DNA from: a virus
DNA length: 64,000 nt
Reading direction: 5' to 3' (one strand)
IMG/VR virus record: IMGVR_UViG_3300042010_000030
Coordinates: 1-64,000 of that record
This document shows positions 9,770 through 36,550 of this stretch, in pieces. Every line of letters starts with the position of its first letter. Position 1 is the stretch's first letter. The position numbers were made by a program, and so were the translations under genes. The notes below the pieces were generated by a model. It did not search any database. It was not told the origin of the DNA and saw only the letters and a program-made list of their open reading frames with translations.

Positions 9770-9806
9770 GATGGATAATCACCTTACACATAAAGGGCAC
9801 ACCTTA

Positions 9807-12800
9807 ATGGAAGACCAAGAATTGATGCTTGAATCTCTGCTGACTGAGATTCTTGATTTGAACAGTGCGAAGTATTTCGACTTCCAAGAAACGCCGGCAA
9901 ACAAGATGCCAGGCATCCCTACGCTCAAGTTCCAGACCGAGTTCGTCACTGACAAAAACAAAGAGTACGCGTTCCGTGTGCTGCGCAAGCCTGAGATCGG
10001 TCGTAACAGTCGTTGGGTGTTCGTATCGATCCGTGCGGCCGGTGGTAAACTGAAAAGTCAAGACCTGATGTTTGATGTCGGTGACATGAAGAAAATCCTG
10101 GTCACCCTGCTCAAGTCGTACCAGCTGTACAAAGAAAGTCCTGACGGTCACCAGACTTCGTCCTACGACTTCACCTTCCCTGCGAAGTATGAGCGCTTTG
10201 CTCCGTTCATCGTCAAGGTCATTCAGCGCGCATTCAAGACCGAACCACGCGCTGCTCTGGATCTGGCCGGCGCTGTCGCTGAAAAGACTGTGTTCCACTT
10301 GTACTACACCAACCGTCAAAGTACTGTGCCGTTCTTCGGTGGTAAAGACTTCGACCCTGTTGCTGTCAAGTCGAACCCGTTCTATGCGAGCCTGGTCAAA
10401 GCGACTCCACCTGATGCCAAGTCTGACGGTTCAGCGGCTGTCGCAGTTGCTGTAGCGAACCAGATTGTCACTGCTACGACTCCGACCCCTGTCGTCGCCC
10501 TAGTTGCCCCTGTCGTCAATACTACGCCGAAAGTCGATGCAGTAGACCCTATGAACAACCCGACAGCGTTCAATGACTCGCTGTTCAACCGTCTACACTT
10601 CGCTAAAGGGCGTGACGACTTCGCGGCGATTCTGCGTGATGTACGCGTGCATCGCAAGTACATGCAAGACCACTTTGAACCGATGTTCAACGCGCTGTAC
10701 GTCAGCAAGCCACTCGACCAGATGTTCGCCAACGTCAACATGAAAGAATGGGACGAAGGTATGGGCTTCTATCTGAAGCGCTACGACCCGTCTGCCTACG
10801 CGTACATCAAGGTGCATGCTGCAATCTCTATCGCCAGCGTACCAGACATGGTAAAAGCGTTGGGTGACGTTCCTAAGGAACTTGCTCAGTTGCGTTCGAG
10901 TCCTGTGATGAACAACAGTGCATGGTCTGTTGCTAAGATGCTCGCTGGCGTCTATAGCCGCGTGTGCGCGTACATCGTCAACATTACCTCCGACACGACT
11001 GCTCAGAGTTCGTTCCTAGCTGACCAAAGATTGATCACTGGTATCATCAACGGCATGACGAATGCTTCGTTTGGTAATACTATTGCTGCTGTCGAAGCGT
11101 ACCTTGCAGATAGCCAGACAAGTATCGCCGACGGTGACCGTATCAAGTCGGCGCTCGTGTTGTATTTCTACAGCATGATGACCGCTTCAATGGCAGTTGA
11201 TATCGTTCGCACTTATGCAAGTAACCCGAAAGTTCGTACCATGCCTAACGGTGACTACAACGTTGATGACATCGACAGCCTCTTCACCAACTCTGCGGTG
11301 ATCATCGATGCACTTGACTCGTTGTTCACAAGTCGGACAATGATCACCTTCGGCGCTTACACGGGTCCGGAAGATGGTCTAGTTGCAATGTTCAAATCAA
11401 AGCAGTGGATGAACCTGTCGAATGCTCTTCGCCTTTCTGCAACATACGACAAGGAAACTTTCTCGCGTATGATGGTTGACTTCGTTAAAGGTGCCAGCTC
11501 CGACTTTATCATTGAGACCTTCGACGACGTTATTACTGGCAGCATGTTCCCGTACAACGTTGCGACGGTACGCACAACTGTGCAAGCTGCATACGGTGAT
11601 CGTATTGCGCAACTTCCAGATGATGTCAACCTCAGTTCAGATATCGAAAAACGTCTGTTTGCTCTATTTGTTGCATCGCCTTCAGCGGCGCTTGTACCAG
11701 CGGCGACTCTGTACTTCAGAAAGCGCGTTCAACGTCTATACGATGTCGCCCTGATCGAACATGACAACTACAGCTATGGTGATGACGCGTTTGTGAAACG
11801 CATCCAGCCTATCGGTATCGATATGGACGCATACGTCCGTAACATCGCCCGTACTGTCGTTTTTGGTCAGAGTAGCTTTTTCATCTCAACGATCATCGTG
11901 AAGGGCCTGGCAAAGTATCTGACATCGGCTCAACTCGATACACTGCTGATGGCCGGTATCATCACCAATGACGGTCTGATGGTCATGTATTATGAGTCGC
12001 GTTCGAAGGTTGTTCTCGATAAGTACAACGAACGTGTTGGTATTATGACCCTGTTGAATAACAACACTGGTCGGATGTACGGTACGACTTGGGCTATGTC
12101 AAAAGCTCTGTACAACATCAGTTCTGACGCTGTTAAGGCTGAGGCGGCAGTGAAGCTGCTTAAAGACCTAGCGACATTCCCTAACGAAGTGGCCGATATC
12201 CTAGGTACAGAAGTAGTCAGCGAACATGTGATTACAGACCCAACATTTAACTATAGGTACAATGCCGCTGAGGTCTTTGCTGTACTGAACGCTAAAGCGT
12301 CTGATGCCGCTATTGCTCGCACTTCTGCAAGTGGTCGTGTGGTTAGCGTCTCTTCGATTATCGATGGTCTCAACCGAAGCGGTAACATGGACAAGCTGTC
12401 AAAGGCGTCCTATGAATCGCTGTTCGCATCGAGTAACAGTTATTTCCGTGGGACAAAGCCATCGCAACGTCGTGAGTTCGAAGACGCAAATGCTCAGGTT
12501 GTTGTAAGTGCGTGGAAGAGTGATCCAAAAGTCGGTGAAGCACTGTTCAATCAGTTGACCACAGACGACAAGAAGATCATTACCAAAAGCGTAATCGCCA
12601 ACAAGTTCGTCGCGGTGACTCGTGATGCGCTTGCAGGTGACCATGTGCCAATCAAGCCACTTGTTGACCTCGATGAAAAACGTATCTTGGACATCCTCAA
12701 GTACAACAACATCAAAGTACCACGTGCGCCGAAAATTGACGACAATGCGACATTGACCGACGTGATGTCGAAGACAATTAACAAATCGGACATCAACACC

Positions 12801-13730
12801 CTTGCTGTTACCGAAGTGCCTAAGACTGCTGAAGAGCTTGAGCAAATGTCGGTGGAGTACGATGCATTCAACCGCTATCGTCACGGTAACATCGCAGCCA
12901 AGATCGTTCGTGCATTCGACGTAAGCATCCCGATTCAGGACGCTGGTTATGCTGCATGGACTGCTAAGATGGCCGCTGAAGGGACTAACTCGAAGATCAT
13001 GCGCCCTGTGTTCCACGGTACGGGCACAGTCGCTGCTTCGATGATCTTGCGTTACGGATTCCGTGTGATCAAGTCGAATGATCCTTCAGTTGCTGGTCGT
13101 ATGCTCGGTGATGGGATCTACTTCAGTAACGTGATCGACAAAGTCAGCCAGTACATGTCTGATGGTCGTATGACGCGTGGTCTTGGTGCGAAGGGCTACA
13201 TCTTTGAGATGGAAGCATCTCTTGGTCAGTATGATCGCGACTTCAAAGCAGCCGGCCCAGGCACTGGTTATAGCGAAACAAGTGTGATTAGTCCTGAGTG
13301 GGCGGTGTTCAACGTCAACGAACAAGTGAAAATTTATCGGGCATATCAGTGCGAACTGATTGACAAAGATATGATGTCCGAGCTAAAATCGAAACACGGT
13401 ATAAATGAAAATACAACCGCTGTAGGTATCAAACACTTTAAGGGGTTTATCAATGAGGCGCTAGGGGGATCAATGAACAGGAAGAACAAGGTCGTCTACA
13501 TCTTTATGGACGGTACTGTTCCTGTATCGAAAGTCAAGTCTGTCGAGTTCGAAGACTTTGATGCCAAGAAGTTCGGTAGCCACGTTCATCTTGACTGGTC
13601 TGGTTCGGGTCCTACTGTTCAGTTCGACACGAACGGCGAAGGCGGCGTGTTCTGCATTCGCTACACCAATCAGTTCATGCACGATGGTAAACAGATCGAC
13701 AAGTTCATTGCTCTCCTTAACGAGAAGTAA
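9807..13730 (+). CDS. Giant virion-type protein with C-terminal PARP-like ADP-ribosyltransferase
   Basis: 1307 aa from ATG 9807 (MEDQELMLESLL). A large N-terminal and middle part of no recognised family, with an Ala/Val/Pro-rich linker near 210-250, precedes a C-terminal ADP-ribosyltransferase domain. The PARP-type triad is visible: H1070 in FHGTG, Y1105 in GIYFS, and E1164 in SPEWAVFNVNEQVKIY. T4 Alt and ModA/B use R-S-E instead, so this is a different subclass. A late promoter and large size suggest packaging and injection, like Alt. About 80 residues follow the ART domain. The target is unknown. Confidence 0.72.
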   Translation: MEDQELMLESLLTEILDLNSAKYFDFQETPANKMPGIPTLKFQTEFVTDKNKEYAFRVLRKPEIGRNSRWVFVSIRAAGGKLKSQDLMFDVGDMKKILVTLLKSYQLYKESPDGHQTSSYDFTFPAKYERFAPFIVKVIQRAFKTEPRAALDLAGAVAEKTVFHLYYTNRQSTVPFFGGKDFDPVAVKSNPFYASLVKATPPDAKSDGSAAVAVAVANQIVTATTPTPVVALVAPVVNTTPKVDAVDPMNNPTAFNDSLFNRLHFAKGRDDFAAILRDVRVHRKYMQDHFEPMFNALYVSKPLDQMFANVNMKEWDEGMGFYLKRYDPSAYAYIKVHAAISIASVPDMVKALGDVPKELAQLRSSPVMNNSAWSVAKMLAGVYSRVCAYIVNITSDTTAQSSFLADQRLITGIINGMTNASFGNTIAAVEAYLADSQTSIADGDRIKSALVLYFYSMMTASMAVDIVRTYASNPKVRTMPNGDYNVDDIDSLFTNSAVIIDALDSLFTSRTMITFGAYTGPEDGLVAMFKSKQWMNLSNALRLSATYDKETFSRMMVDFVKGASSDFIIETFDDVITGSMFPYNVATVRTTVQAAYGDRIAQLPDDVNLSSDIEKRLFALFVASPSAALVPAATLYFRKRVQRLYDVALIEHDNYSYGDDAFVKRIQPIGIDMDAYVRNIARTVVFGQSSFFISTIIVKGLAKYLTSAQLDTLLMAGIITNDGLMVMYYESRSKVVLDKYNERVGIMTLLNNNTGRMYGTTWAMSKALYNISSDAVKAEAAVKLLKDLATFPNEVADILGTEVVSEHVITDPTFNYRYNAAEVFAVLNAKASDAAIARTSASGRVVSVSSIIDGLNRSGNMDKLSKASYESLFASSNSYFRGTKPSQRREFEDANAQVVVSAWKSDPKVGEALFNQLTTDDKKIITKSVIANKFVAVTRDALAGDHVPIKPLVDLDEKRILDILKYNNIKVPRAPKIDDNATLTDVMSKTINKSDINTLAVTEVPKTAEELEQMSVEYDAFNRYRHGNIAAKIVRAFDVSIPIQDAGYAAWTAKMAAEGTNSKIMRPVFHGTGTVAASMILRYGFRVIKSNDPSVAGRMLGDGIYFSNVIDKVSQYMSDGRMTRGLGAKGYIFEMEASLGQYDRDFKAAGPGTGYSETSVISPEWAVFNVNEQVKIYRAYQCELIDKDMMSELKSKHGINENTTAVGIKHFKGFINEALGGSMNRKNKVVYIFMDGTVPVSKVKSVEFEDFDAKKFGSHVHLDWSGSGPTVQFDTNGEGGVFCIRYTNQFMHDGKQIDKFIALLNEK

Positions 13731-15261: not shown

Positions 15262-15789
15262 ATGAGAAGGTCTAACTTGAACCGCGACGAACACGGTTAC
15301 GTCAACAACATCGGTAAATCGAAGTACTGGGGCGTTACGACCAATACCAGCGAGTCCGGTAGCGATCTCTGGGCAGTCAGCTATCAACCACAAGACGGCA
15401 CCGTGACTCACTCGTTGACCGCGCGTGATTTCACCCTGCGTGAAGTTGATGCAGCGCGCTTCGCCAGCGCGATCTATGAGACTGGTCGTCGTAAGACGTC
15501 GACTGTCAAGCTGAAAGTGTTGTGCGAAGACGGCTTGTTTGTCATGCGACTGCGTGGTAACGCGATCTACCGTGAACCGTACACCGATCAAGACGTCTAT
15601 GTACCGAACCCTGACTTCGACAAGGTTGAGGTTGAAGAACAGGTTACAGATGTCGACATCAAGCACGTCAAGCGACATGCTAAAGGTGACGACGAATACA
15701 CCGCGAACCTCGCAAGAATGATCCTCGACGGTAACATCTCGAAAAGTGCTGCCAAGTTGTTGATCGGGATCCTGAAACTGAAAAAGTAA
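15262..15789 (+). CDS. AP2-like DNA-binding protein, paralogue 1
   Basis: 175 aa. GKSKYWGVTT near residues 18-27, a following tryptophan strand (LWAVSYQP) and a helix with conserved AA (DAARFASAIY) resemble the AP2/integrase-like DNA-binding fold found in phage homing and regulatory proteins. The C-terminus (LARMILDGNISKSAAKLLIGIL) forms a second conserved helical block shared with the next gene. No nuclease domain is visible, so a transcription or DNA-organising role is plausible. Confidence 0.6.
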   Translation: MRRSNLNRDEHGYVNNIGKSKYWGVTTNTSESGSDLWAVSYQPQDGTVTHSLTARDFTLREVDAARFASAIYETGRRKTSTVKLKVLCEDGLFVMRLRGNAIYREPYTDQDVYVPNPDFDKVEVEEQVTDVDIKHVKRHAKGDDEYTANLARMILDGNISKSAAKLLIGILKLKK

Positions 15790-15800
15790 CAGCGCTCCGT

Positions 15801-15839
15801 AAGAAAACCCTAGAGTTCAAAAGATTCTAGGGTTTTCTT
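15801..15839 (+). terminator. Intrinsic terminator
   Basis: A 14-bp perfect stem (AAGAAAACCCTAGA with its complement at 15826-15839), loop 11 nt. The right arm ends in TTTTCTT. Confidence 0.85.
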
Positions 15840-15842
15840 GCC

Positions 15843-15885
15843 TTAGGCGTTGACACAGGAAACAGCATCGATATACTACGCCTAA
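15843..15885 (+). promoter_or_regulatory. Promoter enclosed by an inverted repeat
   Basis: TTGACA 15850-15855, 16-nt spacer, TATACT 15872-15877. TTAGGCG (15843-15849) ends exactly before the -35 and CGCCTAA (15879-15885) starts just after the -10, so the whole promoter sits in the loop of a 7-bp repeat. Confidence 0.75.
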
Positions 15886-15915
15886 CTTTCGAAACATCCA
15901 CACAAGAGAGACAGT

Positions 15916-16506
15916 ATGAAGCGAGTTCACAGCATGAAGTATGACGGGATCGGTTATGTAAACGGTCGCGGTAAATCGAAGTACTGGGGCGTTACCACCG
16001 GCATCGACGGCAGTGGTCGTGACTTCTGGATTGTCAGTTTCACCCCTGTCGAGCGTGTTGAAACCTTCACCCTGCACTCCGAGAACTTCAAGCTGGGCGA
16101 ACTCGATGCCGCGAAGATCGCAGCCTACATCGTCGAGAACGGTCGCAGCATGGTCAACTTGCAAGACGCGAAGATCCTGTCCCACGACAAGCGCTTCGTT
16201 CTGTTCATCAAGCACACCTCGATCTATCGTGAGCGGTTTGTCAACCAGATCACCTACAAAAACAAAACCGAAGTCAACCTGTTTGACGCGGTGCTGCCAA
16301 CCAAGCCTGCTGGCACTCCTGAAGTTCTGACTGCTCTGCGTCAGTTCCCTACTCAGCTTGAGACGAAAGCGGTTGTAGTCGAAGCTAAACCAGTCGATAC
16401 TGAATCATCGGACATCGCGACACTTGCTCAGATGATCCTCGACTGTAACCTGTCTGCGCGTGCATCGCGGGTACTCATCGCCGTGCTGCAATCTAACATC
16501 GCCTAA
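15916..16506 (+). CDS. AP2-like DNA-binding protein, paralogue 2
   Basis: 196 aa, a diverged tandem copy of the gene at 15262: it shares GYVN-GKSKYWGVTT, the W-VS strand, the DAAKIAAYI helix and the C-terminal LAQMILDCNLSARASRVLIAVL block, but has an extra 35-residue linker before the last block. It has its own promoter, so the copies can be expressed differently. Function unknown; DNA binding is inferred from the AP2-like pattern. Confidence 0.6.
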   Translation: MKRVHSMKYDGIGYVNGRGKSKYWGVTTGIDGSGRDFWIVSFTPVERVETFTLHSENFKLGELDAAKIAAYIVENGRSMVNLQDAKILSHDKRFVLFIKHTSIYRERFVNQITYKNKTEVNLFDAVLPTKPAGTPEVLTALRQFPTQLETKAVVVEAKPVDTESSDIATLAQMILDCNLSARASRVLIAVLQSNIA

Positions 16507-16518: not shown

Positions 16519-17010
16519 ATGATGAAAACTGTTACAGGTAATCTGGTATCGATGGTCAAGCAAGGCCAGTTCGACATCATCATTCACGGTGCGAACATCC
16601 ACAACACGATGGGTAGCGGCATCGCTGCTGAGATTCGTCGTGAACTGCCTGAGATGTATGAGGCTGACTTGGCGACTCGGATGAGCGACATCCGCAAGCT
16701 CGGTCACTTCTCGGTTGCTCAGCTTGTCAAGTATGAGACTCAGACAGGCAACCCATTCATCGACCGGCCGTTCGGTATCAACCTGTACACGCAAGCAACG
16801 ATGGGCGGGCCTGGTGTCCACATCGACTACGAAGCGTTTGAGCGTGGCATGTACGCGATCAACATGATGTTTGCTGCATACCCTGTTCAACCGAAGTTCG
16901 GTATCCCGAAGATCGGCGCAGGTCTGGGTGGTGGTGACTGGGATCGCATCGTGGACATCGTCAAGAGCATCGGCTTTGCTGACATCACCTACGTCGAGTT
17001 CGACAACTAA
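16519..17010 (+). CDS. Macro-domain protein
   Basis: 163 aa, a single macro domain. GNLV at 7-10, DIIIHGANIHNTMGSGIAAE at 19-38 and the C-terminal GIPKIGAGLGGGDWDRI match ADP-ribose-binding macro domains of the Appr-1''-p/ADP-ribosylglutamate hydrolase type. Such proteins bind or remove ADP-ribose from protein or nucleic acid. A PARP-type transferase is encoded 2.8 kb upstream. It is followed two bases later by a HAD phosphatase gene. Confidence 0.83.
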   Translation: MMKTVTGNLVSMVKQGQFDIIIHGANIHNTMGSGIAAEIRRELPEMYEADLATRMSDIRKLGHFSVAQLVKYETQTGNPFIDRPFGINLYTQATMGGPGVHIDYEAFERGMYAINMMFAAYPVQPKFGIPKIGAGLGGGDWDRIVDIVKSIGFADITYVEFDN

Positions 17011-17011: not shown

Positions 17012-17608
17012 ATGGCTATCATCGGCGTAGACGTTGACCTGACTGTCGTGAACAGCGACATTGCGTGGTTTGACTGGTGCAACTCGAAGTGTCGCAACAA
17101 ACTTAACCATGCTGAGCTGATCGCTGAACGTGGTATGATTCCATATCACTTCGGTGAGCTGTTTGGCTTCGTCAATCCAGAAACTGCGCTTGACTTCTGG
17201 GATGAGGAGTATGTCTACGATGAGCTTGAGCCTATCGCGCACTCTGTCAATGCGTTGAAGGAACTCAGCAGACATCACCAGATCGTCTTCGTGTCGAAGC
17301 TGATGGGTAATCACTTCGAAAGTAAGAAGAGCTTTCTTGAACGCAACTTCCCGTTCATGTCTGGTTTCATCGGCACTGATCAGAAACAGTTCGCCCGCGT
17401 AGACATCTTGATTGATGATCGAGTCGACCACCTAAATAAGGTGCAGAAAGCAGGGATCGTCCCTATTCAGTACATGACACCATACCATCAAGATGAAGAA
17501 CCGGCCACTGACATGGCGTTCATCAAATCGTGGCTTGACCTGTTGTGCACTAATGAGGACACCTTGTACAATGCACTCTTCGAAAACTACCGGACAGCTA
17601 AAGTATGA
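17012..17608 (+). CDS. HAD-family phosphatase
   Basis: 198 aa from ATG 17012. GVDVDLTVVNSD is the DxD nucleophile motif near the N-terminus, VFVSK is motif II and DILIDDR is motif IV of the NT5C-like HAD group. It is a second, distinct copy of the type at 9049. It overlaps queE as ATGA, so a role in nucleotide supply for the deazaguanine pathway is possible. Confidence 0.7.
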   Translation: MAIIGVDVDLTVVNSDIAWFDWCNSKCRNKLNHAELIAERGMIPYHFGELFGFVNPETALDFWDEEYVYDELEPIAHSVNALKELSRHHQIVFVSKLMGNHFESKKSFLERNFPFMSGFIGTDQKQFARVDILIDDRVDHLNKVQKAGIVPIQYMTPYHQDEEPATDMAFIKSWLDLLCTNEDTLYNALFENYRTAKV

Positions 17609-18489
17609 AAGATGTAAAGTTCACTGAGATGTTCTACTCGATTCAGGGTGAAGCACTCAACACAGGTAAGCTGTGCACTTGGCTGCGCTTGTATCTGTGT
17701 TCGTTGCAGTGCCGTGGCTTCGGTCAAGTCGAACCGGGCAACCCTGAGACATGGGCTGAGCAATACCCGCTGATCGACGTGAAGAACATCACCGAGCTTG
17801 AGAAAGTGCCAACCCCAAGCACTGGTTGCGATTCCGCATACTCGTGGAGCGCACAGTTCAAGCACCTCGTCAAGACCAAGACCACGCGTGAAGTTGCGAC
17901 TGAAATCCGTGCAATGACGGGTCAAAAGAACTTCGGTAAGATCGGTCACGTCTTCACAGGCGGTGAACCTATGATGCAGCAGGAAGCAATTGCTGAAATC
18001 ATCATGTACTGGATCGATGTCGATGAAGACTGGCCAGCATGGGTCGGCTTCGAAACGAACGTTACTCAGAAGATCAAACCCGAGTTGCGTAAGGCGATCC
18101 AAGCGCTGAAAGACCATGAGTGTCATGTCTACTTCTCTATGTCGCCTAAGCTGTTGCACGTCTCAGGTGAAGAGCCGAAGAAAGCGATTCGCATTGACCT
18201 GATGGCTGAATACGTCAACCTCTGCCCTCAGAGCTACCTGAAGTTCGTGTTGAACGAAGACCAGCGTGCCTGGGATCAAGCTGCAAACATCGTACACGTC
18301 CTCGAACACTGCGGATCTTGCAACTACTGCGACATTGATGTATGGGTAATGCCTGTAGGCGGTGTGATCGGTCAACAGCTTGACCCTGCTGTAGGTCGTA
18401 TCGCAGACAAAGCGATCAAAGAATACCAGTGGAACGTTAGCCCTCGGGTACATGTTCTGATCTGGGGCGATGATCAAATCGGACGCTAA
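17605..18489 (+). CDS. queE: 7-carboxy-7-deazaguanine synthase QueE
   Basis: 294-aa radical SAM enzyme that converts carboxytetrahydropterin to 7-carboxy-7-deazaguanine. FYSIQGEALNTG and WLRLYLCSLQC near the N-terminus, the later cluster cysteine in TGCDSAYSW after a long insert, and FTGGEPMMQQ match phage QueE. The insert between cysteines with GFGQ is typical of T4-like phage versions. It starts within the stop of the HAD gene and heads the QueE-membrane-QueD run. Confidence 0.9.
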   Translation: MKDVKFTEMFYSIQGEALNTGKLCTWLRLYLCSLQCRGFGQVEPGNPETWAEQYPLIDVKNITELEKVPTPSTGCDSAYSWSAQFKHLVKTKTTREVATEIRAMTGQKNFGKIGHVFTGGEPMMQQEAIAEIIMYWIDVDEDWPAWVGFETNVTQKIKPELRKAIQALKDHECHVYFSMSPKLLHVSGEEPKKAIRIDLMAEYVNLCPQSYLKFVLNEDQRAWDQAANIVHVLEHCGSCNYCDIDVWVMPVGGVIGQQLDPAVGRIADKAIKEYQWNVSPRVHVLIWGDDQIGR

Positions 18490-18492
18490 CTG

Positions 18493-18735
18493 ATGATCAC
18501 CATCGCAACATGGGGAGGTATCCTGATGTGTATCGGGGCCTTCCTTTCATTAAAGGGTAAAATCTATCAAGCTGTAGCAACATACCTGTTTGCTGATGCG
18601 TGCTGGGTTTGGTTAACGTTCGACAAGGGCGACTACCAAGCGCTGTTCTTCACGTTAATAGGTTCACTGCTAAGCTTGGCAGCGTTCATCAAAATGTACC
18701 TAGGTGTCATGAGGAAGGACTTGAAAAATGATTGA
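18493..18735 (+). CDS. Small membrane protein in the deazaguanine operon
   Basis: 80 aa with three hydrophobic stretches (ITIATWGGILMCIGAF, AVATYLFADACWVWLTF, LFFTLIGSLLSLAAFIKMYLGVM). It lies 3 nt after queE and overlaps queD by 8 nt, so it is co-translated with the pathway. No family recognised. A role in uptake or membrane placement of a precursor would be inference from position only. Confidence 0.75.
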   Translation: MITIATWGGILMCIGAFLSLKGKIYQAVATYLFADACWVWLTFDKGDYQALFFTLIGSLLSLAAFIKMYLGVMRKDLKND

Positions 18736-19345
18736 GGTTCACAGCACCAAAGTTTATCAACGACTTGCAACGGCGCATGCCCAGTTCTTCGACAAAGAAC
18801 CAGACGGCTCGCCAGGTGAGTGCGCAAGCGTTCATGGTTATGACCGAACGATCTCTCTCACCTTCTCTGGTGAAATTGACGAAAATGGTTGGATCGTTCC
18901 CTTCGGTGAACTGCAAGAAGTCAAGAAGTTTCTTGAATTCTACTTTGACCACACAATCGTCTTGCCAGCGAACGACCAGCGTATCAGTGGTATCACACAA
19001 GAAATGACCAAGCCAGGAGGTCTGTTCAGCAAGTTGCGTATTCTACCATGCGGCGTAAGCATGGAAATGTCCTCTCTGTTCATCTGGGAGTTCATTTCAC
19101 CGTATATCACCCACGTTACCAACGGTCGGTGCTATGTGTCGCGTGTTGAGAGCCGTGAGCATGAATGCAACAGCGCCTACATCACCGTAGACCGTGAGAC
19201 TGCAATGAAGACCTACAAGCAGTTGATCGCAGGTGGTGAACAGTTCATGGGCGACCCTACGGCGTTCTTGCTTGTCAAACAAGCAAGTTGGGATTACATC
19301 GCGCCGAAGGACGCGCTTGATTGGTACAGCAAGCTATCAGCATAA
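18728..19345 (+). CDS. queD: 6-carboxytetrahydropterin synthase QueD
   Basis: 205 aa, T-fold enzyme turning dihydroneopterin triphosphate into carboxytetrahydropterin. Seen: a possible zinc His in ATAHAQFF, catalytic-type C32 and H36 in CASVHGY, PFGELQEVKKFLEFYFDHT, GVSMEMSSLFIWE and RVESREHECNSA. Where bacterial QueD has HGH, this protein has HGY (Y38), so one usual zinc ligand is changed or supplied elsewhere. It is longer than cellular QueD (about 120 aa), as in other phages. Confidence 0.85.
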   Translation: MIEVHSTKVYQRLATAHAQFFDKEPDGSPGECASVHGYDRTISLTFSGEIDENGWIVPFGELQEVKKFLEFYFDHTIVLPANDQRISGITQEMTKPGGLFSKLRILPCGVSMEMSSLFIWEFISPYITHVTNGRCYVSRVESREHECNSAYITVDRETAMKTYKQLIAGGEQFMGDPTAFLLVKQASWDYIAPKDALDWYSKLSA

Positions 19346-19364
19346 CCTAGTCGATAGGTAATCA

Positions 19365-19408
19365 CAATGGTCTAACAGGTTGACGCAACTGTTAGACCAT
19401 TGTAGTAT
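19365..19408 (+). promoter_or_regulatory. Inverted repeat with promoter -35 in its loop
   Basis: CAATGGTCTAACAG (19365-19378) is perfectly complementary to 19389-19402. The 10-nt loop plus one base carries TTGACG (19380-19385) and TAGTAT (19403-19408) follows the right arm with a 17-nt spacer. It ends the queD unit and starts the next. Confidence 0.75.
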
Positions 19409-19487
19409 CTGCTCTATAGAAAGACGAAACGTGAAGTGGTTGCAGAGCGAGTCAGAAAGCGAAAACCAAAAAGATTGAAGAAACAGG

Positions 19488-19516
19488 TTGACGCAGGTAC
19501 TCACTAGAGTTAAGAT
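19488..19516 (+). promoter_or_regulatory. Second sigma70-like promoter
   Basis: TTGACG 19488-19493, 17-nt spacer, TAAGAT 19511-19516. Between this and the upstream promoter no open frame with a ribosome site is seen. Confidence 0.6.
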
Positions 19517-19563
19517 GAAATCACTGAAGCGAAACTACACCATTCTGAAGAGAGACCTACATC

Positions 19564-20259
19564 ATGACTAGCCCAATCAAAGTTATCGACCCAGCTGTTA
19601 AACTGAACCTCGCTATCGAATCCCTGCTGAAGCCGCAACTGAAAGCGAAAGAACTCGCTGAACAGTTCGGTATGAGCGAGACGACCGCCAAGCGTGCGAT
19701 GAAAGACTTTCACGACGAAGCGTGCAAGATCATCGACCAGCGCGTAGCTGACGAAGAGGCCGCCCTGCAAGCTGCTGAAGACGCGAAGAAAGCTGCAAAG
19801 ACTTCGTCGTCGAAGAAGGGCGGTAAAAAAACTGAAGCTGATGCACCAAAGACCGATGCTCCAAAGGTCGAAGATGCACCGAAGACTGATGCACCACCAG
19901 CAGCGCCGGCGGCCCCAGCAACACCAAAAGCACGCGCTCCAGGTACTGACATCGCTCGTGGTGAAAAGGGCTTCAAGCCGCGCAACGGTCGCTGGACTGT
20001 GCTGAACGCACTGTTCGCTGAAAAGGGGTTCGATGATGCAGCGGCCCTGTACATCGAAGCGAACAAGCGTGGTGTAGCTGCTGGTCTGAAAGAGCTGAAT
20101 CGCGGTAGCTTCTACTCGATGTTGAGTATGGCGAAAAAGAAAAGCTTGACGGCTGCGGCTACGGCTGCTAGTGTTAAAGATGTAAACAAAGATGACAACA
20201 AAGCAGCAGACACAAGCACTAGCAATGACGCAGGTGCTGCTGACACAGACAAGAGTTAA
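19564..20259 (+). CDS. DNA-binding-like protein with Ala/Pro linker, paralogue 1
   Basis: 231 aa. An N-terminal helix-turn-helix-like part (LKAKELAEQFGMSETTAKRAMKDF) is followed by a Lys/Ala/Pro-rich linker with repeated DAPK units (about 85-135). A compact C-terminal domain (GFKPRNGRWTVLNALF...GSFYSMLSMAKK) and an acidic tail close the protein. The C-terminal domain recurs in the gene at 20367. The architecture suggests an abundant chromatin-like or regulatory protein; the family is not recognised. Confidence 0.7.
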   Translation: MTSPIKVIDPAVKLNLAIESLLKPQLKAKELAEQFGMSETTAKRAMKDFHDEACKIIDQRVADEEAALQAAEDAKKAAKTSSSKKGGKKTEADAPKTDAPKVEDAPKTDAPPAAPAAPATPKARAPGTDIARGEKGFKPRNGRWTVLNALFAEKGFDDAAALYIEANKRGVAAGLKELNRGSFYSMLSMAKKKSLTAAATAASVKDVNKDDNKAADTSTSNDAGAADTDKS

Positions 20260-20366
20260 CAGTTAGCTGTAATCGATTCAAACGCATTGTTTTCGTAGTA
20301 TTGCGTCGTTTCTGTTAGTGAGTCTGTTGTGTTCTGAAACCATTCTTGAATACTTGGAGTACTACC

Positions 20367-20831
20367 ATGAAAACTATCGACACTACCAAAGCTCGCATTG
20401 AAGTCGCTAAAATCGCAATCGAATCAATCAAGATGCTTGCGCATCTTGAAGGTACTGATCTCGCTAGCTTGCTCGCTGAGTTGAACGCTGAAGACTCGCA
20501 ACTGAATGCCGCAACACCAGCTGTGCAACCAGCTAAGGGCTCCAGGAGCAAGAAAGCGACAGGTACCGTTATCGCGACTATTCCGGCTCCAACCCCAGCA
20601 CCATCAATAGCAAACGATGGTGTCGATGAGCGTGGTTATCACCCTCGCAACGGTCGTTGGGAAATGCTGAACAAGATGTTCGCAGAAGTTGGCTTCAATA
20701 AGAGTACTGGTGAACTTTTCGACGAGGCGAATAAAAGGGGTGCAGCACTTGGTCTCGAACCTTTGCGCAAGACCACGTTCTACTCGATGCTCAGCGTTGC
20801 CAAGAAGGCCGCTGGTTACGTCAAGAAGTAA
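20367..20831 (+). CDS. DNA-binding-like protein with shared C-terminal domain, paralogue 2
   Basis: 154 aa from ATG 20367, with TTGGAGT upstream at 20354-20360. A helical N-terminus, an Ala/Pro/Lys linker and the C-terminal domain GYHPRNGRWEMLNKMF...TTFYSMLSVAKK align with the gene at 19564. The N-terminal domains differ, so the C-terminal module is the conserved functional unit. Function unknown. Confidence 0.7.
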   Translation: MKTIDTTKARIEVAKIAIESIKMLAHLEGTDLASLLAELNAEDSQLNAATPAVQPAKGSRSKKATGTVIATIPAPTPAPSIANDGVDERGYHPRNGRWEMLNKMFAEVGFNKSTGELFDEANKRGAALGLEPLRKTTFYSMLSVAKKAAGYVKK

Positions 20832-20857
20832 CACCGCGCAACGATACACCGTAACAC

Positions 20858-20898
20858 CAGGAAGGCGAAACTCTAGACAAAAGAGTTTCGCCTTCCTG
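20858..20898 (+). terminator. Strong hairpin terminator
   Basis: A 17-bp perfect stem (20858-20874 with 20882-20898) and a 7-nt loop, followed by a pyrimidine-rich stretch (CTTTCCTC). Confidence 0.85.
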
Positions 20899-20909
20899 CT
20901 TTCCTCTGT

Positions 20910-20930
20910 TATAATATCCTATCCTAAATA
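20910..20930 (+). promoter_or_regulatory. TATAAT and TAAATA motifs before folE
   Basis: TATAAT at 20910-20915 is a candidate -10 but its -35 region falls in the terminator. TAAATA at 20925-20930 lies 46 nt before folE. Which, if either, is used cannot be told from sequence. Confidence 0.4.
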
Positions 20931-20975
20931 GGTTCACATGAAATTTATTCTCAACACCATCAAAAAGGTAGATCG

Positions 20976-21650
20976 ATGTCCTTCCAACCTACGAAAACCG
21001 ATGCAGCACTCGGCAAAGCTGTCAACGATTACTTGATCCTGAAAGGTGTAGCTACACCGACTATCGCGTCTGACCTGAGCGACGACGACAAGGTTCGGAT
21101 TATCGAAGATCACATGACCGAAGTACTCACCACTCTTGGTCTTGACCTGGCTGATGATTCTCTGGCTGAGACACCTCGTCGTGTGGCCAAGATGTTTGTC
21201 AAAGAACTGTTCTGGGGCCTGAAGACCGAGAACTTCCCTAAGGCTACCACTGTCGACAACAAGATGTCCTACAACCAGATGGTTGTTGAGAAAGACGTGA
21301 CCATCATGTCGAGCTGCGAACACCACCTTGTCACGATTGACGGTATCGCGCACATCGCCTACATCCCTAAGGGTAAGGTACTGGGTCTGTCGAAGCTCAA
21401 CCGTATCGCTGAGTACTTCGCTCGCCGTCCACAGATTCAAGAGCGTCTGACCTTGCAGATCGCACACAGTCTTCAGTTCATCCTCGACACCGAAGACGTT
21501 GCTGTTGTGATCGATGCTGAACACTACTGCGTCAAATCGCGCGGTGTTGAAGACCACGGTAGCCATACAGTCACTTCGTACCTCGGTGGTTCGTTCAGCA
21601 GTAATCCAGTATGCCGTCAAGAGTTCATGAGCATCGTCTACTCCAAGTGA
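20976..21650 (+). CDS. folE: GTP cyclohydrolase I FolE
   Basis: 224 aa. It makes dihydroneopterin triphosphate from GTP, the first step toward 7-deazaguanines. The ETPRRVAKMF segment, zinc Cys/His in SSCEHHL (C114, H117), GLSKLNRIAEYFARRPQIQE and the second zinc Cys in AEHYCVKSRGVE are all present, so it should be active. It is followed 8 nt later by dpdA. Confidence 0.93.
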   Translation: MSFQPTKTDAALGKAVNDYLILKGVATPTIASDLSDDDKVRIIEDHMTEVLTTLGLDLADDSLAETPRRVAKMFVKELFWGLKTENFPKATTVDNKMSYNQMVVEKDVTIMSSCEHHLVTIDGIAHIAYIPKGKVLGLSKLNRIAEYFARRPQIQERLTLQIAHSLQFILDTEDVAVVIDAEHYCVKSRGVEDHGSHTVTSYLGGSFSSNPVCRQEFMSIVYSK

Positions 21651-21658
21651 GGTTTTAA

Positions 21659-22936
21659 ATGTTTGAGTACGTTGCTTCTGGTCTGAGTCACACTCGGATC
21701 ATGCAAAAGATGGCACTTGAGTCGCCCGCGCACCTTGCTATTGACGACATGATCGGCTCTATGCAAGGTAAGTACGGGCACACGTACAGTTGCCTGTTCA
21801 ACGCGCACACTGAAAAGCAATACGGGCCACAGGTCAACGAGTTCTACAAGCAGTGGCATAAGATCCATTCTGACTCTGGTGGCCTTCAGATCATCACCCA
21901 GGGCCTGACGATTACCGAGCAAATGAAGCTAGATGTCTATGACATCCAGTCGAAATATTCGGACATCGCCATGAGCTTCGATGAAATCCCGATTGTCCTG
22001 ACAGGCAAGACGTCTGGTCGTAACGATACCGATGACCGCTTCTTTGATGCTGCGAACTTCACCGACTATGCCAAGCGCACAGGTGAGAACATCCGCAAGC
22101 AAATCGAATTCATCGTTGACAATGACCGCATGCGCTGCAAGCCGCTGTTGATCATTCAAGGCAACTGTGTTGACACGTACAAGCAATGGCTAGATGTCCT
22201 GCTTGAGACCATTCCTGATAACTTGCATCAGTACATCGGTGGTATCTCTCTAGGGGCGGCAGGCCTCGGTACAGGCCCGCTGGAAGACATCGAACGTATG
22301 TTCAGCTTCACGCAACTTGAAGCACCAGACCACATCAAGAATACCTTGCACATCCTTGGAGTCGGTAGCGTCAAGCGTCTGTTGCCTGCGGTGATGTTCA
22401 AGCGTTCAGGTATGTTGGATGGGGTGCATGTGTCGTATGACTCGACGTCGCACACGAGTGGCGTGACGATGGGTCATTACTACAGCTACGATTTTAAAGG
22501 TAATCGGAAGTTCCCTGTGACCTTCTCTCGGTTCTCTGAACAGATCATGCGCGACATCGAAACCTACTTCGGCTTTAACCTTGACCCTATTATCTTTATG
22601 GATTCAATCCGTTTAAGTAATAAGGCATTTGCTGACAGGCATGGTGAGCCTGATGACGCAATGAATGAACTTCGGTTGAAGATTTGTTTTGGTTTTATTT
22701 GCGCATCGATACTTAACTTTACTCGGCACGTTGACGAAATCACAACTAACGAGTATAGTTTGACCGAGTTCGTGCAAGAGCAAGGGTTGAACCCTATGCT
22801 GCACCTGCGCGATGTAAATGACATGGCAAGTTGGAACGACTGGAAACGGAACTTCGGTAAGAAGGTTCAAAGTCGTCGCATTAAACACCTCAGTGAAGCA
22901 AACAATCAATCTACTCTTTTCGACTTAGCAGGATAA
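21659..22936 (+). CDS. dpdA: DNA guanine transglycosylase DpdA
   Basis: 425 aa, TGT-related enzyme that swaps guanine in DNA for a 7-deazaguanine. DSGGLQ at 72-77 is the TGT active-site loop, followed by SFDEIP, the base-pocket strand GGISLGAAGLGTGP, and LLPAVMFKRSG. The canonical tRNA-TGT zinc site (CxCxxC) is absent, as is typical for phage DpdA. The neighbouring folE, queD and queE supply the substrate. Which DpdA subfamily it belongs to cannot be judged here. Confidence 0.85.
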   Translation: MFEYVASGLSHTRIMQKMALESPAHLAIDDMIGSMQGKYGHTYSCLFNAHTEKQYGPQVNEFYKQWHKIHSDSGGLQIITQGLTITEQMKLDVYDIQSKYSDIAMSFDEIPIVLTGKTSGRNDTDDRFFDAANFTDYAKRTGENIRKQIEFIVDNDRMRCKPLLIIQGNCVDTYKQWLDVLLETIPDNLHQYIGGISLGAAGLGTGPLEDIERMFSFTQLEAPDHIKNTLHILGVGSVKRLLPAVMFKRSGMLDGVHVSYDSTSHTSGVTMGHYYSYDFKGNRKFPVTFSRFSEQIMRDIETYFGFNLDPIIFMDSIRLSNKAFADRHGEPDDAMNELRLKICFGFICASILNFTRHVDEITTNEYSLTEFVQEQGLNPMLHLRDVNDMASWNDWKRNFGKKVQSRRIKHLSEANNQSTLFDLAG

Positions 22937-22940: not shown

Positions 22941-23330
22941 ATGATCACCAAGTATAACAGTGAAGTATTCGTGACCTTTCAACGTGAAGGTATCCATTGC
23001 TATCCGGCCGCTGCAACTGATCCGAAGTTGGCAACTGGTGGCTGGGATGATGTTAGCTTTCTCGCATCGCCACATCGCCATATGTTTCACTTCAAGTTGA
23101 CCCTCGAAGTATTCCACAATGACCGTGATATCGAGTTCATCCAACTCAAACGTCAATGTCTGAAGTGGTATGACGAAGGCACTCTGAACTTCGACCACAA
23201 GTCCTGCGAGATGCTGGCCGATGAACTTGCCGAACGCGTTGCTGCACAGTGGCCAGGTCGCACCATCAAGATCGAAGTGAACGAAGATGGTGAAAACGGT
23301 TGCGTCAACTCTTACTGCGACGGTATCTAA
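22941..23330 (+). CDS. Second QueD-like T-fold protein beside dpdA
   Basis: 129 aa. The T-fold pattern of 6-pyruvoyl/carboxy-tetrahydropterin synthases is visible: PHRHMFHF (H45, H47 match the zinc HxH), DIEFIQLKR (matches the DF-LK segment), SCEMLADELAERV (matches PT-E-LA) and IKIEVNEDGENG (matches the E-T region). The catalytic Cys four residues before the HxH is missing. A full-length QueD is encoded at 18728, so this protein probably does a different step, perhaps tailoring the base. It starts 4 nt after dpdA. Confidence 0.65.
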   Translation: MITKYNSEVFVTFQREGIHCYPAAATDPKLATGGWDDVSFLASPHRHMFHFKLTLEVFHNDRDIEFIQLKRQCLKWYDEGTLNFDHKSCEMLADELAERVAAQWPGRTIKIEVNEDGENGCVNSYCDGI

Positions 23331-23333: not shown

Positions 23334-24377
23334 ATGGGCACAGTGCACCTCATCGAACTAGAACCGATTGAGAGTCGCTATACATCGATCTGGAAGCACA
23401 CGCTTCCAGCATTGATCGAGACTCACGGGATGAAAGTCAACGTCATTGCAGGGGAAGCCAGGGGCTCCGACACTGCAACAGAAGGCGCGTTTCTCAACTT
23501 CACGAAGACCAACGAGTTCAAAGCATCACAAGCGATCATCTTGGCGCGTGCGTTTGATGATGGTACAGTCACTGATGGTGATGTGCTGTTGTTCACTGAT
23601 GCATGGAACCCTGTGATCTTGATGGCGCGCTACATGATCGACTTGACAGGTAAAGATGTTCAGATCGCCAGCATGTGGCACGCAGGTAGCTATGACCCTC
23701 AAGACTTTCTTGGTCGCAAGATCCCGAGCAAGACATGGTCATTCAATGCTGAGCGCGCAATGTTCTATGCTGCCGACGTGAACTTCTTTGCGACTCAGTT
23801 CCATGTTGACATGTTCTGCAATACGCTCGGTGTCGATAGACGTCATTCGACGATCCATAAGGCGGGCTTCCCGTTCGAATACATCGCAGAGATTGCGCAA
23901 TGTGCAACGCCTGCTGATCTCGTTAAGGAAGATATTGTTTGTTTTCCGCACCGACTAAGCGAAGAGAAGAACTATAACCTGTTTAAGCAACTTGAAGTTA
24001 TGTTACCACAATATAAGTTCATTGCCTGTCAGGAAAGTTCGTTGACTAAGGACGAGTATTACAATATCCTTGCTCGCTCTAAGTTGCTGTTCTCGGCAAA
24101 CAAACAGGAAACTCTCGGTATCGGCACATATGAAGGATTGGCTCTCAAGGCAATCCCGATGGTGCCCGACTACTTGTCATACTCGGAAATGTACAACGTA
24201 CTGTTCAAGTATGATCCAGCGGAGATGCGTGACCCACAGGCAATGGCTGACTTGATTGTTCATTACATGAATAACTATGACAAGCTTGCGCCGCGACTCG
24301 ATAAAGAGTTCGAACGCATCTCTGCGACCTTCTTCACCTCAACCTCAATGATGACCACTTTAAAGGAACTGATGTAA
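23334..24377 (+). CDS. Glycosyltransferase-like protein
   Basis: 347 aa with a GT-B-like layout: an N-terminal acceptor half, VCFPHRLSEEKNYNLFKQLEVMLP (as in GT4 'rlspeKN'), SKLLFSANKQETLGIGTYEGLALKAIPMVPD (the E-x7-E-type donor site). It follows the QueD-like gene by 3 nt. It could glycosylate the modified DNA base or act on the host surface; the position in the modification cluster favours the former, but this is inference. Confidence 0.7.
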   Translation: MGTVHLIELEPIESRYTSIWKHTLPALIETHGMKVNVIAGEARGSDTATEGAFLNFTKTNEFKASQAIILARAFDDGTVTDGDVLLFTDAWNPVILMARYMIDLTGKDVQIASMWHAGSYDPQDFLGRKIPSKTWSFNAERAMFYAADVNFFATQFHVDMFCNTLGVDRRHSTIHKAGFPFEYIAEIAQCATPADLVKEDIVCFPHRLSEEKNYNLFKQLEVMLPQYKFIACQESSLTKDEYYNILARSKLLFSANKQETLGIGTYEGLALKAIPMVPDYLSYSEMYNVLFKYDPAEMRDPQAMADLIVHYMNNYDKLAPRLDKEFERISATFFTSTSMMTTLKELM

Positions 24378-24379: not shown

Positions 24380-25063
24380 ATGAACTTCGATACTTTTAAC
24401 CGCCAAATCCAAGACGTTATCGACTGGAACGCGGTTGCTCGCAAGATGACCCACACCTTCACTCCAGAACAACTGGTAGCACAGACTGCATATGTCCATG
24501 AAGAGGTGATGGAAACTATCGCAGGCATCGCAACCAAAGACACGAAGGAAACTCTGGATGGCATCGCTGACATCTTCGTCACCCTTGCCTACAAGTACTT
24601 CCTGATGCGTCAAGAGTTCAATGCCGACTTCAACGTTGAAGACCTGTTCGGTGAAGACATCAGCACAGACCCTCGCCTGCAACAAGACTACCTGCTGTCG
24701 CTGACCAGCACCATCTCAACCAACAACCTGTTTGCAGAAGGCCTGCACGACATCGAATTCACCATGAGCCTGCTGTACCTGCTGATGTACGTTGCTGAAG
24801 ACCTGTATAAGGTTGATATGCATGTCGTCGTCGATGCGGTGATGGAAAGCAACTGGAGCAAGTTCCCAATCGCCAGCGAAGTCAAAGACATTGACGCTAT
24901 GTGTGAGTGGATTGAAGAAGTCCGCAAGCGCGAAAACGTCGGCTACTCGTTTGCTGAAGTTGCTGGTGTCCAGCGTGTAACCTTCCGTGACAACTTCGGT
25001 GAAGGCAAGATCATGAAGCCTTCGACTTTCGTTGAGCCGAACATCGCCGCACTGCTGAAGTAA
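24380..25063 (+). CDS. MazG-like nucleotide pyrophosphohydrolase
   Basis: 227 aa. YVHEEVMETIAGIATKDTKETLDGIADIFVTLAYKYF has the EExxE...ExxD helix pair of all-alpha NTP pyrophosphatases. The C-terminal 100 residues form a second helical part not recognised. It lies 2 nt after the glycosyltransferase. It may clear nucleotides or signalling nucleotides. Confidence 0.65.
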   Translation: MNFDTFNRQIQDVIDWNAVARKMTHTFTPEQLVAQTAYVHEEVMETIAGIATKDTKETLDGIADIFVTLAYKYFLMRQEFNADFNVEDLFGEDISTDPRLQQDYLLSLTSTISTNNLFAEGLHDIEFTMSLLYLLMYVAEDLYKVDMHVVVDAVMESNWSKFPIASEVKDIDAMCEWIEEVRKRENVGYSFAEVAGVQRVTFRDNFGEGKIMKPSTFVEPNIAALLK

Positions 25064-25075
25064 ATCGCCCCTGCG

Positions 25076-25110
25076 AGTCGCTGTAAGCCCTTTACAGCGA
25101 CTTCGTTCCT
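25076..25110 (+). terminator. Intrinsic terminator before DNA polymerase
   Basis: AGTCGCTGTAA (25076-25086) pairs with 25092-25102, loop 5 nt, followed by TCGTTCCTTT. Confidence 0.8.
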
Positions 25111-34753: not shown

Positions 34754-34827
34754 GGGCCCATAGCTCAATGGAGAGCTGAGTCCTCATAAGACTTGGGTTG
34801 TCGGTTCGAGTCCGGCTGGGCCCACCA
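34754..34827 (+). tRNA. tRNA with CAU anticodon (Met or Ile2)
   Basis: GGGCCCA acceptor pairs with TGGGCCC; the anticodon arm GAGTC-CTCATAA-GACTT gives CAU; T-loop TTCGAGT; encoded CCA. CAU could be elongator Met or a lysidine-modified Ile tRNA; the stem cannot decide. Confidence 0.9.
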
Positions 34828-34867
34828 TATTTTGAAAGCAACTCCACTAACTGTAAGGAAGTAAACG

Positions 34868-35008
34868 ATGTCCGAAATCAAAGCTTGCAAATGTAAACAC
34901 GCTGCACAAGACGCCCTGCACGGTGCCGGCCAGCGCGTACACAACCCTAACGCTAAAGGCGCACTGAAGTGCACTGTATGTGGCGCTGGCGGCGAGAAAA
35001 AGAAGTAA
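34868..35008 (+). CDS. Small zinc-ribbon protein
   Basis: 46 aa: CKCKH near the N-terminus and CTVCG near the end could bind one zinc, with the QDALHGAGQRVHN middle common in small phage proteins of this type. AAGGAAG lies upstream. Lys-rich tail. Confidence 0.75.
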   Translation: MSEIKACKCKHAAQDALHGAGQRVHNPNAKGALKCTVCGAGGEKKK

Positions 35009-35065
35009 TCGCTAACTACTGATATGAGGGTGGCAAGCGTCACCCTCACTACAAGGAACACTGTA

Positions 35066-35482
35066 ATGAAGCTGATCGACACCCTGAAAGAAATGCGCAA
35101 TCTTTACCGCAAAGCGCCTAACGTGGTGACTGAGTTCAACCTCTTGACTCTGGTAGTCGGTGAGTGTGAACGTGTAGGTAAAGAGGTTGATGACCTCGCA
35201 GTCCTTTCGATCCTGCGCAAGATGCACGGCTCGAACGCCGAGTGCCTGAAGGTGGCATGCTCGCGGGTTAGTGGTAAGCTGATGGATGAAAACAATTTCA
35301 TCAATCAACTGCTGGAAAAGTACACACCGACACAGTTGAGCGCTTCCCAGATCATCCAGCGCATCACACAAAACAGCATCACTAACATGGCCGATGCCAT
35401 GAAGTGGCTGAAGGCTAACTGTGCTGGTCAGTACGACGGTAAGGTTGCTTCTGACGCTGTCAAACAACACTTTGCCAAGTGA
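35066..35482 (+). CDS. GatB/YqeY-like domain protein
   Basis: 138 aa from ATG 35066, AAGGA at 35053-35057. A helical protein resembling YqeY/the GatB tail: an N-terminal pair ending ...LAVLSILRKM, and a QIIQRITQNSITNMADAMKWLKAN...GQYDGKVASDAVKQHF C-terminus like the GatB/YqeY 'N-g-vMk-lk' block. That domain binds tRNA in amidotransferases, and the gene sits in the tRNA cluster. Confidence 0.7.
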   Translation: MKLIDTLKEMRNLYRKAPNVVTEFNLLTLVVGECERVGKEVDDLAVLSILRKMHGSNAECLKVACSRVSGKLMDENNFINQLLEKYTPTQLSASQIIQRITQNSITNMADAMKWLKANCAGQYDGKVASDAVKQHFAK

Positions 35483-35676
35483 AATTCGATCGGAGTAGAC
35501 GTGACATGCGCAGTCGATTCGCAAACGTTGATTACGAACCACAGCCACTTGATAGGAGCGAGCAATATGAAACGGGACTGAAACGTGTAGGTGAGCATAC
35601 CAACTACGCCCAGGAAGATTTGGCTTTCGATGAAGGTCAATCCAAGGGCACTACTGAACAGGAAACCGAAGAATGA
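35479..35676 (+). CDS. Small hypothetical protein
   Basis: 65 aa, start GTG 35479 overlapping the upstream stop (GTGA). Highly charged (DRSRRDMRSRF, then TEQETEE). An internal ATG at 35506 is possible. No domain recognised. Confidence 0.6.
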   Translation: MKFDRSRRDMRSRFANVDYEPQPLDRSEQYETGLKRVGEHTNYAQEDLAFDEGQSKGTTEQETEE

Positions 35677-35897
35677 AATACCGCGTACAGATGCAAGACA
35701 CTGTCAATGGCCAAGCGTTCAACTTCGCTATGGTCTATGATGCCTGCATGCCAAACGGTGCAAGTGACTCTGCTATTGCCGAGTTTCCTGAAGCGACTGT
35801 TGTTAGCATAACTGTCGTCCAACCGAACTTGGGTGAATTGCTGCAACAAGCAATTGATAAAATTGCTGTAGAGGAGTTGCTACAACGGGTAGCATAG
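35673..35897 (+). CDS. Small hypothetical protein
   Basis: 74 aa, ATGA overlap with the preceding gene. A strand-rich N-terminal half (YRVQMQDTVNGQAFNFAMVYDA) and a helical tail; unrecognised. Confidence 0.7.
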   Translation: MKYRVQMQDTVNGQAFNFAMVYDACMPNGASDSAIAEFPEATVVSITVVQPNLGELLQQAIDKIAVEELLQRVA

Positions 35898-35906
35898 TTG
35901 TATAAT
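35877..35906 (+). promoter_or_regulatory. Sigma70-like promoter candidate
   Basis: TTGCTA 35877-35882, 18-nt spacer, perfect TATAAT 35901-35906. It leads into a very short frame and the tRNA cluster. Confidence 0.5.
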
Positions 35907-35933
35907 TGGCACTACTATATAGGAGTGTAGGGA

Positions 35934-36020
35934 ATGAAGAAACTGTTGCAAGATTGGGGCAAGTGGTTAAGGTTGCAATGTCGAGTGACAGTGGCATACC
36001 TCAAAACCCTGAAGTATTGA
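35934..36020 (+). CDS. Very short frame, 28 aa
   Basis: MKKLLQDWGKWLRLQCRVTVAYLKTLKY is basic and amphipathic, preceded by GGAGTG 11-16 nt upstream and a TATAAT promoter. It may be a real peptide or a leader. Confidence 0.4.
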   Translation: MKKLLQDWGKWLRLQCRVTVAYLKTLKY

Positions 36021-36032
36021 AAAGATTTACGG

Positions 36033-36076
36033 TATCAGGATAAAATAATTCGAAAAAGCTTTGTTTTATCCTGATA
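36033..36076 (+). terminator. Hairpin upstream of tRNA cluster
   Basis: A 13-bp perfect stem, TATCAGGATAAAA (36033-36045) with 36064-36076, loop 18 nt. A TATACT follows at 36085-36090 and TAAATA at 36095-36100, possibly promoters for the tRNA block. Confidence 0.7.
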
Positions 36077-36214
36077 TTAGAATATACTAAGCACTAAATA
36101 GACATACAGAAACAAAGCTGTTCTAGCAACAGCGTTCAATATGATCAGGATGAAGCTAGGCTACTCTGAGGCCTAGATTAAAGGTTAATAGAGCGCTGCT
36201 GTAGAAAAGTTTAT

Positions 36215-36292: not shown

Positions 36293-36297
36293 AATTC

Positions 36298-36522: not shown

Positions 36523-36550
36523 TTGACATGTGCTTAGACTCTAGTAGAAT
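36523..36550 (+). promoter_or_regulatory. Sigma70-like promoter inside tRNA cluster
   Basis: TTGACA 36523-36528, 16-nt spacer, TAGAAT 36545-36550, 33 nt before a small gene. Confidence 0.75.

Follow-up and report, generated by a model that had tools for sequence, protein, structure and literature searches.

What base does a DNA guanine transglycosylase insert into phage DNA when no QueC accompanies it? The question is raised by a viral record from IMG/VR, IMGVR_UViG_3300042010_000030, of which positions 1 to 64,000 were analysed (the window, to which coordinates refer unless another locus is named). A first-pass annotation had placed FolE, QueD, QueE and DpdA at 17605-22936, had seen no QueC and had suggested that 7-carboxy-7-deazaguanine (CDG) or a further derivative, rather than preQ0, is inserted. 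All four genes do lie in that interval, but it stops just before two more, encoding a 129-amino-acid protein with a predicted QueD fold (here o129, 22941-23330) and a putative glycosyltransferase (GT, 23334-24377). The answer preferred here, at slightly better than an even chance, is a QueC-independent 7-deazaguanine DNA modification in which o129 would convert CDG, the transglycosylase DpdA2 would insert the base and the GT would add a sugar. The genes concerned are as follows.

17605..18489, plus strand: queE, CDG synthase (phrog_2076, E 2e-55)
18728..19345, plus strand: queD, CPH4 synthase (PF01242, E 7e-12; phrog_2389, E 7e-27)
20976..21650, plus strand: folE, GTP cyclohydrolase I, first gene of the operon (PF01227, E 3e-62)
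21659..22936, plus strand: dpdA2, DNA guanine transglycosylase (phrog_10773, E 3e-100)
22941..23330, plus strand: o129, 129 amino acids, predicted QueD-fold/T-fold (phrog_17812)
23334..24377, plus strand: GT, 347 amino acids, predicted GT-B fold, GT4-type retaining (phrog_4356 glycosyltransferase, E 7e-4)
24380..25063, plus strand: MazG-like nucleotide pyrophosphohydrolase, last gene of the operon (phrog_671, E 8e-23)

The pathway genes and the absence of QueC

FolE, QueD and QueE form an established route to CDG (PMC13329287), and the presence of their genes and of dpdA was borne out by Pfam and phrog matches with E values from 7e-12 to 3e-100. Their motifs are intact, as had been claimed: QueE retains the CxxxC...CD cluster cysteines and TGGEP, the transglycosylase has the TGT-type motifs DSGGLQ, FDEIP, QGN, HxLG and YDST, and QueD keeps the DH and E but has the variant CxxxHGY instead of CxxxHGH, which is invariant across 17 relatives. 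The transglycosylase matches protein YP_008125322 of Vibrio phage nt-1 (tblastn E about 2e-42), the founding DpdA2 protein (PMC6884629), and by homology and motifs can be assigned to the DpdA2 family; it had no relatives in a search of bacterial genomes. The operon runs folE-dpdA2-o129-GT-mazG with successive gaps of 8, 4, 3 and 2 bp. Instead of the three transcription units originally proposed there are two groups, this one and queE-TM-queD (TM being a membrane-protein-like gene), which do, as described, have DNA-binding-like genes between them, namely two helix-turn-helix (HTH)-like genes.

The nearest known phage is Pseudomonas phage pf16 (Chakrabartyvirus). A near-DNA search of the phage collection with the window gave no match. 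The record encodes a T4-like set of DNA polymerase, UvsX and DnaB-type helicase, and shares with pf16 a gene order running from an NT5C-like gene to PolB, with identities of 77% for QueE, 67% for QueD, 74% for PolB and 53% for the MazG-like protein (gp76, in the same place in pf16). QueE is 60% identical to that of PA5oct, and FolE is 63% identical to that of ACP17 and 61% to that of ZZ01, but only 53% to that of pf16. The locus in pf16 is FolE-DpdA2-QueF-QueC-GATase: QueF, QueC and a glutamine amidotransferase (GATase) stand between DpdA2 and MazG, whereas the window has o129 and the GT there. The pf16 gene product gp79 (L001 11333-12277) is annotated as a GTP cyclohydrolase and is QueF by Pfam.

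The DpdA2 proteins of pf16 and the window also belong to different clades. In a maximum-likelihood tree that of pf16 grouped with nt-1 and other QueC-containing Vibrio phages (support 100/98), and that of the window fell among proteins from GT-containing loci, apart from the pf16/nt-1 clade. As both the contents of the slot and the DpdA2 clade differ, the whole cassette appears to have been exchanged, and the most parsimonious view is that DpdA2 was replaced along with the enzymes that accompany it. The other QueC-containing pair, Moby and Yut2, lies on long branches on the GT side, which implies two or more changes of the QueC/GT state on this tree. Proteins from GT-containing loci have a GG-loop of the form GGxAxGAAxLG, compared with AGxAxxDTCIG or similar in the QueC-containing Vibrio/pf16 clade; the loops of X1 and Moby depart from both patterns. 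We take this loop to be equivalent to the TGT loop near the 7-substituent, and the difference would then be in line with, but not proof of, a different 7-group.

A search for QueC (PF06508) was extended from the window to the whole 92,779-bp record, an open-ended fragment of an incomplete genome, and again gave no match; the same search was positive in pf16, nt-1 and 12 of 14 control genomes. Of the genes that define the Group 2 preQ0 phages of Hutinet et al. 2019 (PMC6884629), the record therefore has FolE, QueD, QueE and DpdA and lacks QueC. Whole-genome searches of 11 complete phages with o129 found no PF06508 match in nine (ACP17, ZZ01, PA5oct, Phosso, RHph_I1_18, Ahp1, Bakedbeans, phiST and MA9V-3), a match below the cut-off in X1 and one above it in D479. 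A QueC gene might lie in the unsequenced part of the genome, making this an ordinary preQ0/G+ system, and a 92.8-kb open fragment is indeed short of the 158 kb of pf16. However, the record does span the syntenic slot, which is occupied by other genes, and with the nine negative relatives this makes it the least probable of the explanations considered.

A second way to preQ0 would be for the QueC of the host to complete the pathway, DpdA2 inserting preQ0 as in nt-1. The wide occurrence of QueC in bacteria, seen in 12 of the 14 control genomes, favours it, as does the DNA of nt-1, a DpdA2 phage, which contains mainly dPreQ0, plus dG+ and dADG (Hutinet et al. 2019, PMC6884629). The locus of nt-1 resembles the present one in its DpdA2 family, FolE, QueD-like protein and QueE, but has QueC beside DpdA2 and neither o129 nor a GT nearby. 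Other DpdA2 phages similarly carry their own QueC next to dpdA2, and here the QueC block was exchanged along with a different DpdA2 clade and a different GG-loop; a contribution from the host is thus very unlikely.

Linkage of DpdA2, o129 and the glycosyltransferase

The association of the three genes was examined in three sets of loci: 92 records with o129, grouped by type of DpdA, 80 IMG/VR contigs picked by DpdA2 only and 80 contigs picked by GT only. In the first set the GT was present in 15/15 records with DpdA2, in 50/53 with a DpdA-like family of 520 amino acids that includes PA5oct, in 6/7 without a recognised DpdA and in 0/17 with a phiST-type DpdA-like family of 285 amino acids. The contigs picked by DpdA2 carried both o129 and the GT in 72 of 80 cases, and none of the 80 had QueC within 10 kb. 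Of the eight exceptions, six have DpdA2 without either partner and run out no more than about 0.8 kb beyond it; L111 breaks off directly behind o129, and in L116 the GT is present and o129 was not detected. Among the contigs picked by GT, 76/80 carry o129 and the other four begin at the GT. The gap between o129 and the GT has a median of about 210 bp (148 loci).

Cultured phages gave a similar picture. In the phage collection o129 was found in all 16 records whose GT match covers at least 80% of the query, and the pairing occurs in five unrelated groups, namely the PA5oct group, ACP17, Phosso, X1 and BUCT-ZZ01. Acidovorax phage ACP17 and Synechococcus phage BUCT-ZZ01 have FolE, QueD, QueE, DpdA2, o129 and the GT in complete genomes without QueC; they differ from the window in gene order, their DpdA2, o129 and GT are annotated as hypothetical, and ZZ01 has in addition a second GT and a phosphoribosyltransferase. 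Cellulophaga phage phiST shares FolE, QueD, QueE, o129 and the lack of QueC, but has the 285-amino-acid protein in place of DpdA2 and no GT.

Neither DpdA-like family has been annotated. The first, of about 520 amino acids, has DSGGFQ and other TGT-like motifs, lies directly 5' of o129/GT in PA5oct (L087 7209-8831) and 52 other loci, matches DpdA2 by profile (87%) and on that basis is probably another DpdA subfamily. The second, of about 285 amino acids, resembles DpdA by motif only, with the order DNSAFE, PQGE, HFLG, SWDSS; it is found in phiST (L094 8789-9568), L091, L092, L095 and others, with o129 alongside and never a GT. PDB sequence searches with DpdA2, the GT and profiles of the two families returned nothing relevant.

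An AlphaFold2 model of o129 built from a 36-sequence alignment (predicted local distance difference test score, pLDDT, 90.7) has the bb-aa-bb layout of a T-fold. Its best PDB match by Foldseek is E. coli QueD (probability 1.00, TM score about 0.6-0.74), followed by other PTPS proteins and then QueF-like ones. A profile of only three rows matched neither QueD by hhalign nor the PDB by HMM search, whereas the deeper alignment matched QueD with 83% probability over 44 columns. The aligned members shown have an HxH motif without a Cys four residues upstream, and because the catalytic Cys of CxxxHGH is absent o129 is not classed as QueD. The conserved residues H19, H45-R-H47 and E115 presumably form a T-fold metal site and a base-anchoring Glu. 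The model indicates that o129 is a second, altered QueD-like enzyme; it is a candidate for the enzyme that converts CDG and is possibly DpdL. Cui et al. 2023 reportedly proposed DpdL as a phage CDG decarboxylase and found the deoxynucleosides of CDG (dCDG) and 7-deazaguanine (dDG) in phage DNA; that paper is not known to describe a glycosyltransferase. Literature searches on DpdL and deazaguanine glycosylation returned nothing relevant.

These results bear on whether the pathway might simply stop at CDG, with DpdA2 inserting dCDG and with o129 and the GT incidental. FolE, QueD and QueE suffice for CDG, QueC is absent, and the literature allows for CDG in phages without QueC, having proposed it for Mycobacterium phage Bipper (PMC6884629). 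It is difficult, however, to regard as incidental a protein with the fold of a pathway enzyme that sits in the operon of DpdA2 and recurs in almost every DpdA2 locus with a GT, and CDG as the final base is considered quite unlikely. The first-pass annotation pointed in the right direction: with QueC missing both from this record and from the vicinity of almost every related cassette, preQ0 is an unlikely product. Its alternative of CDG itself as the inserted base is not supported, since the QueF-QueC-amidotransferase slot of pf16 is occupied here by a QueD-fold enzyme and a GT that are nearly inseparable from this DpdA2 clade.

The AlphaFold2 model of the GT (pLDDT 89) has its best PDB matches in MshA/BshA/PglA (Foldseek probability 1.00) and also matches UDP-Glc:tetrahydrobiopterin glucosyltransferase. 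No Pfam glycosyltransferase model scored above cut-off for the window protein, and its homologue in ZZ01 was just above it for PF13692 and PF00534. Residues R207, E211, K212 and E259-x7-E267 fit the GT4 retaining class; E-x7-E is found in the subfamily of the window and D-x7-E in the other. From its modelled GT-B fold and the E-x7-E motif the protein can be placed among the GT4 retaining enzymes.

What the GT acts on is a separate matter. Its target might lie elsewhere, whether a different base, a protein of the phage or host, or a sugar on the cell surface, with o129 making 7-deazaguanine by decarboxylation for DpdA2 to insert as dDG. The phiST-type phages show that o129 can work without a GT (0/17), but a GT aimed at something unrelated would not be expected to follow the pathway so closely that contigs picked by it either carry o129 or are cut at the GT itself. 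No thymidylate-synthase-family enzyme was found in the complete phages ACP17, BUCT-ZZ01 and X1, nor in this record, and those three phages consequently offer no hydroxymethyl-pyrimidine of that origin as acceptor. A target elsewhere is therefore unlikely, even if it is less so than CDG as the final base. A role for the GT in a hydroxymethyl-pyrimidine system had been considered in its own right and was rejected as unlikely for ACP17, ZZ01 and X1; PA5oct and Phosso do encode a thymidylate-synthase-family enzyme.

A possible route to a sugar-bearing base

Gene content, folds, operon layout, the exchange with QueF-QueC-GATase and the linkage of DpdA2, o129 and the GT were computed directly, and it is from fold, operon and linkage that we infer the steps of the preferred QueC-independent route. 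FolE, QueD and QueE would, as known for their families, make CDG from GTP. The zinc-site histidines and base-anchoring Glu of o129 might then act on CDG, the likeliest conversion being a decarboxylation that yields 7-deazaguanine, and DpdA2, as a member of its family, would swap guanine in the phage DNA for the resulting base. The near-obligatory linkage suggests that the GT adds the sugar of a host nucleotide-sugar to the deazaguanine, either before or after insertion. The phage DNA would finally contain a 7-deazaguanine with a sugar attached, a modification that would block restriction.

Several points weigh against this route. Decarboxylation by o129 would strip the base of its obvious group for attachment of a sugar, and either a C7 C-glycoside or a sugar ester of CDG would be needed, both of which are unusual. 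The GT is a candidate base glycosyltransferase whose acceptor is indicated by linkage only. A nucleotide-sugar epimerase family, detected in 38/71 loci with the GT, speaks for the route, and a second GT was detected in 18; no sugar-epimerase, phosphoribosyltransferase or second GT was found in this record, and the missing epimerase speaks against it. Host QueC could act on the pathway, and the record is incomplete. The searches with DpdA2 and the GT list the nearest relatives of the window first, and the contigs are not phylogenetically independent. Finally, several records with o129 encode, at a distance from the cassette, divergent QueC-like proteins with PP-loop/CxxCxxC motifs, for which reason strict exclusivity of o129 and QueC was rejected; their exclusivity is strong but not absolute.

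Earlier work (PMC6884629) had already described 7-deazaguanine DNA systems and DpdA2 and had raised the possibility of CDG in phages without QueC. A GT as a regular part of a DpdA2 system without QueC was not found in the literature searched, which lay outside subscription papers. The wider proposal, that many double-stranded DNA phages, including Pseudomonas PA5oct/Paride-type jumbo phages and ACP17, make a glycosylated 7-deazaguanine without QueC by means of a QueD-fold enzyme and a dedicated GT4 enzyme, is held at just under an even chance. To our knowledge the substituents on the 7-deazaguanine bases of phage DNA are small. A 7-deazaguanine bearing a sugar would, if true, add a new class to the known hypermodifications, akin to the glucosylated hydroxymethylcytosine of T4, placed on a deazapurine rather than a 5-hydroxymethyl-pyrimidine, and might protect DNA against restriction and CRISPR enzymes. 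For the unannotated phrog_17812 and GT families, found across hundreds of viral contigs as well as in cultured phages, the linkage suggests a testable function. It would also mean that a phage can swap its base when it exchanges a cassette with the transglycosylase in it.

Flanking features

The remaining features around the two gene groups are as follows.

18493..18735, plus strand: membrane-protein-like open reading frame (ORF) of 80 amino acids between queE and queD, 74% identical in pf16, in the same place
19564..20259, plus strand: HTH-like ORF, weak HTH_11 match under the cut-off, related to pf16 gp82/gp83
20346..20831, plus strand: second ORF of the same family (pf16 gp82, E 5e-14)
20858..20898, plus strand: terminator-like hairpin 5' of folE, 17-pair stem
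25075..25103, plus strand: terminator-like hairpin closing the operon, 13-pair stem

No Pfam family was found above cut-off for the membrane-protein-like ORF, and the ORF at 20346..20831 had no Pfam match. The HTH-like ORF at 19564..20259 probably lies outside the pathway. The two hairpins, both strong, bound the folE-to-mazG block and have the longest stems in the region, although the total number of terminator-like sites there is not above that of shuffled sequence.

Two pairs of adjacent related ORFs, at 15262-16506 and 19564-20831, have the look of local duplications and have relatives in pf16. Further upstream an ORF of 1319 amino acids (9771-13730) contains a PARP-type ADP-ribosyltransferase domain (PF00644, 27.1 bits), and pf16 gp92 is an ORF of similar size at the corresponding position. 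A macro-domain-like/phosphatase ORF (phrog_335) lies at 16519-17010, so that a writer and a possible eraser of ADP-ribose are found close together. Ten tRNA genes are spread across ~5.4 kb of the window at 34754-40141.

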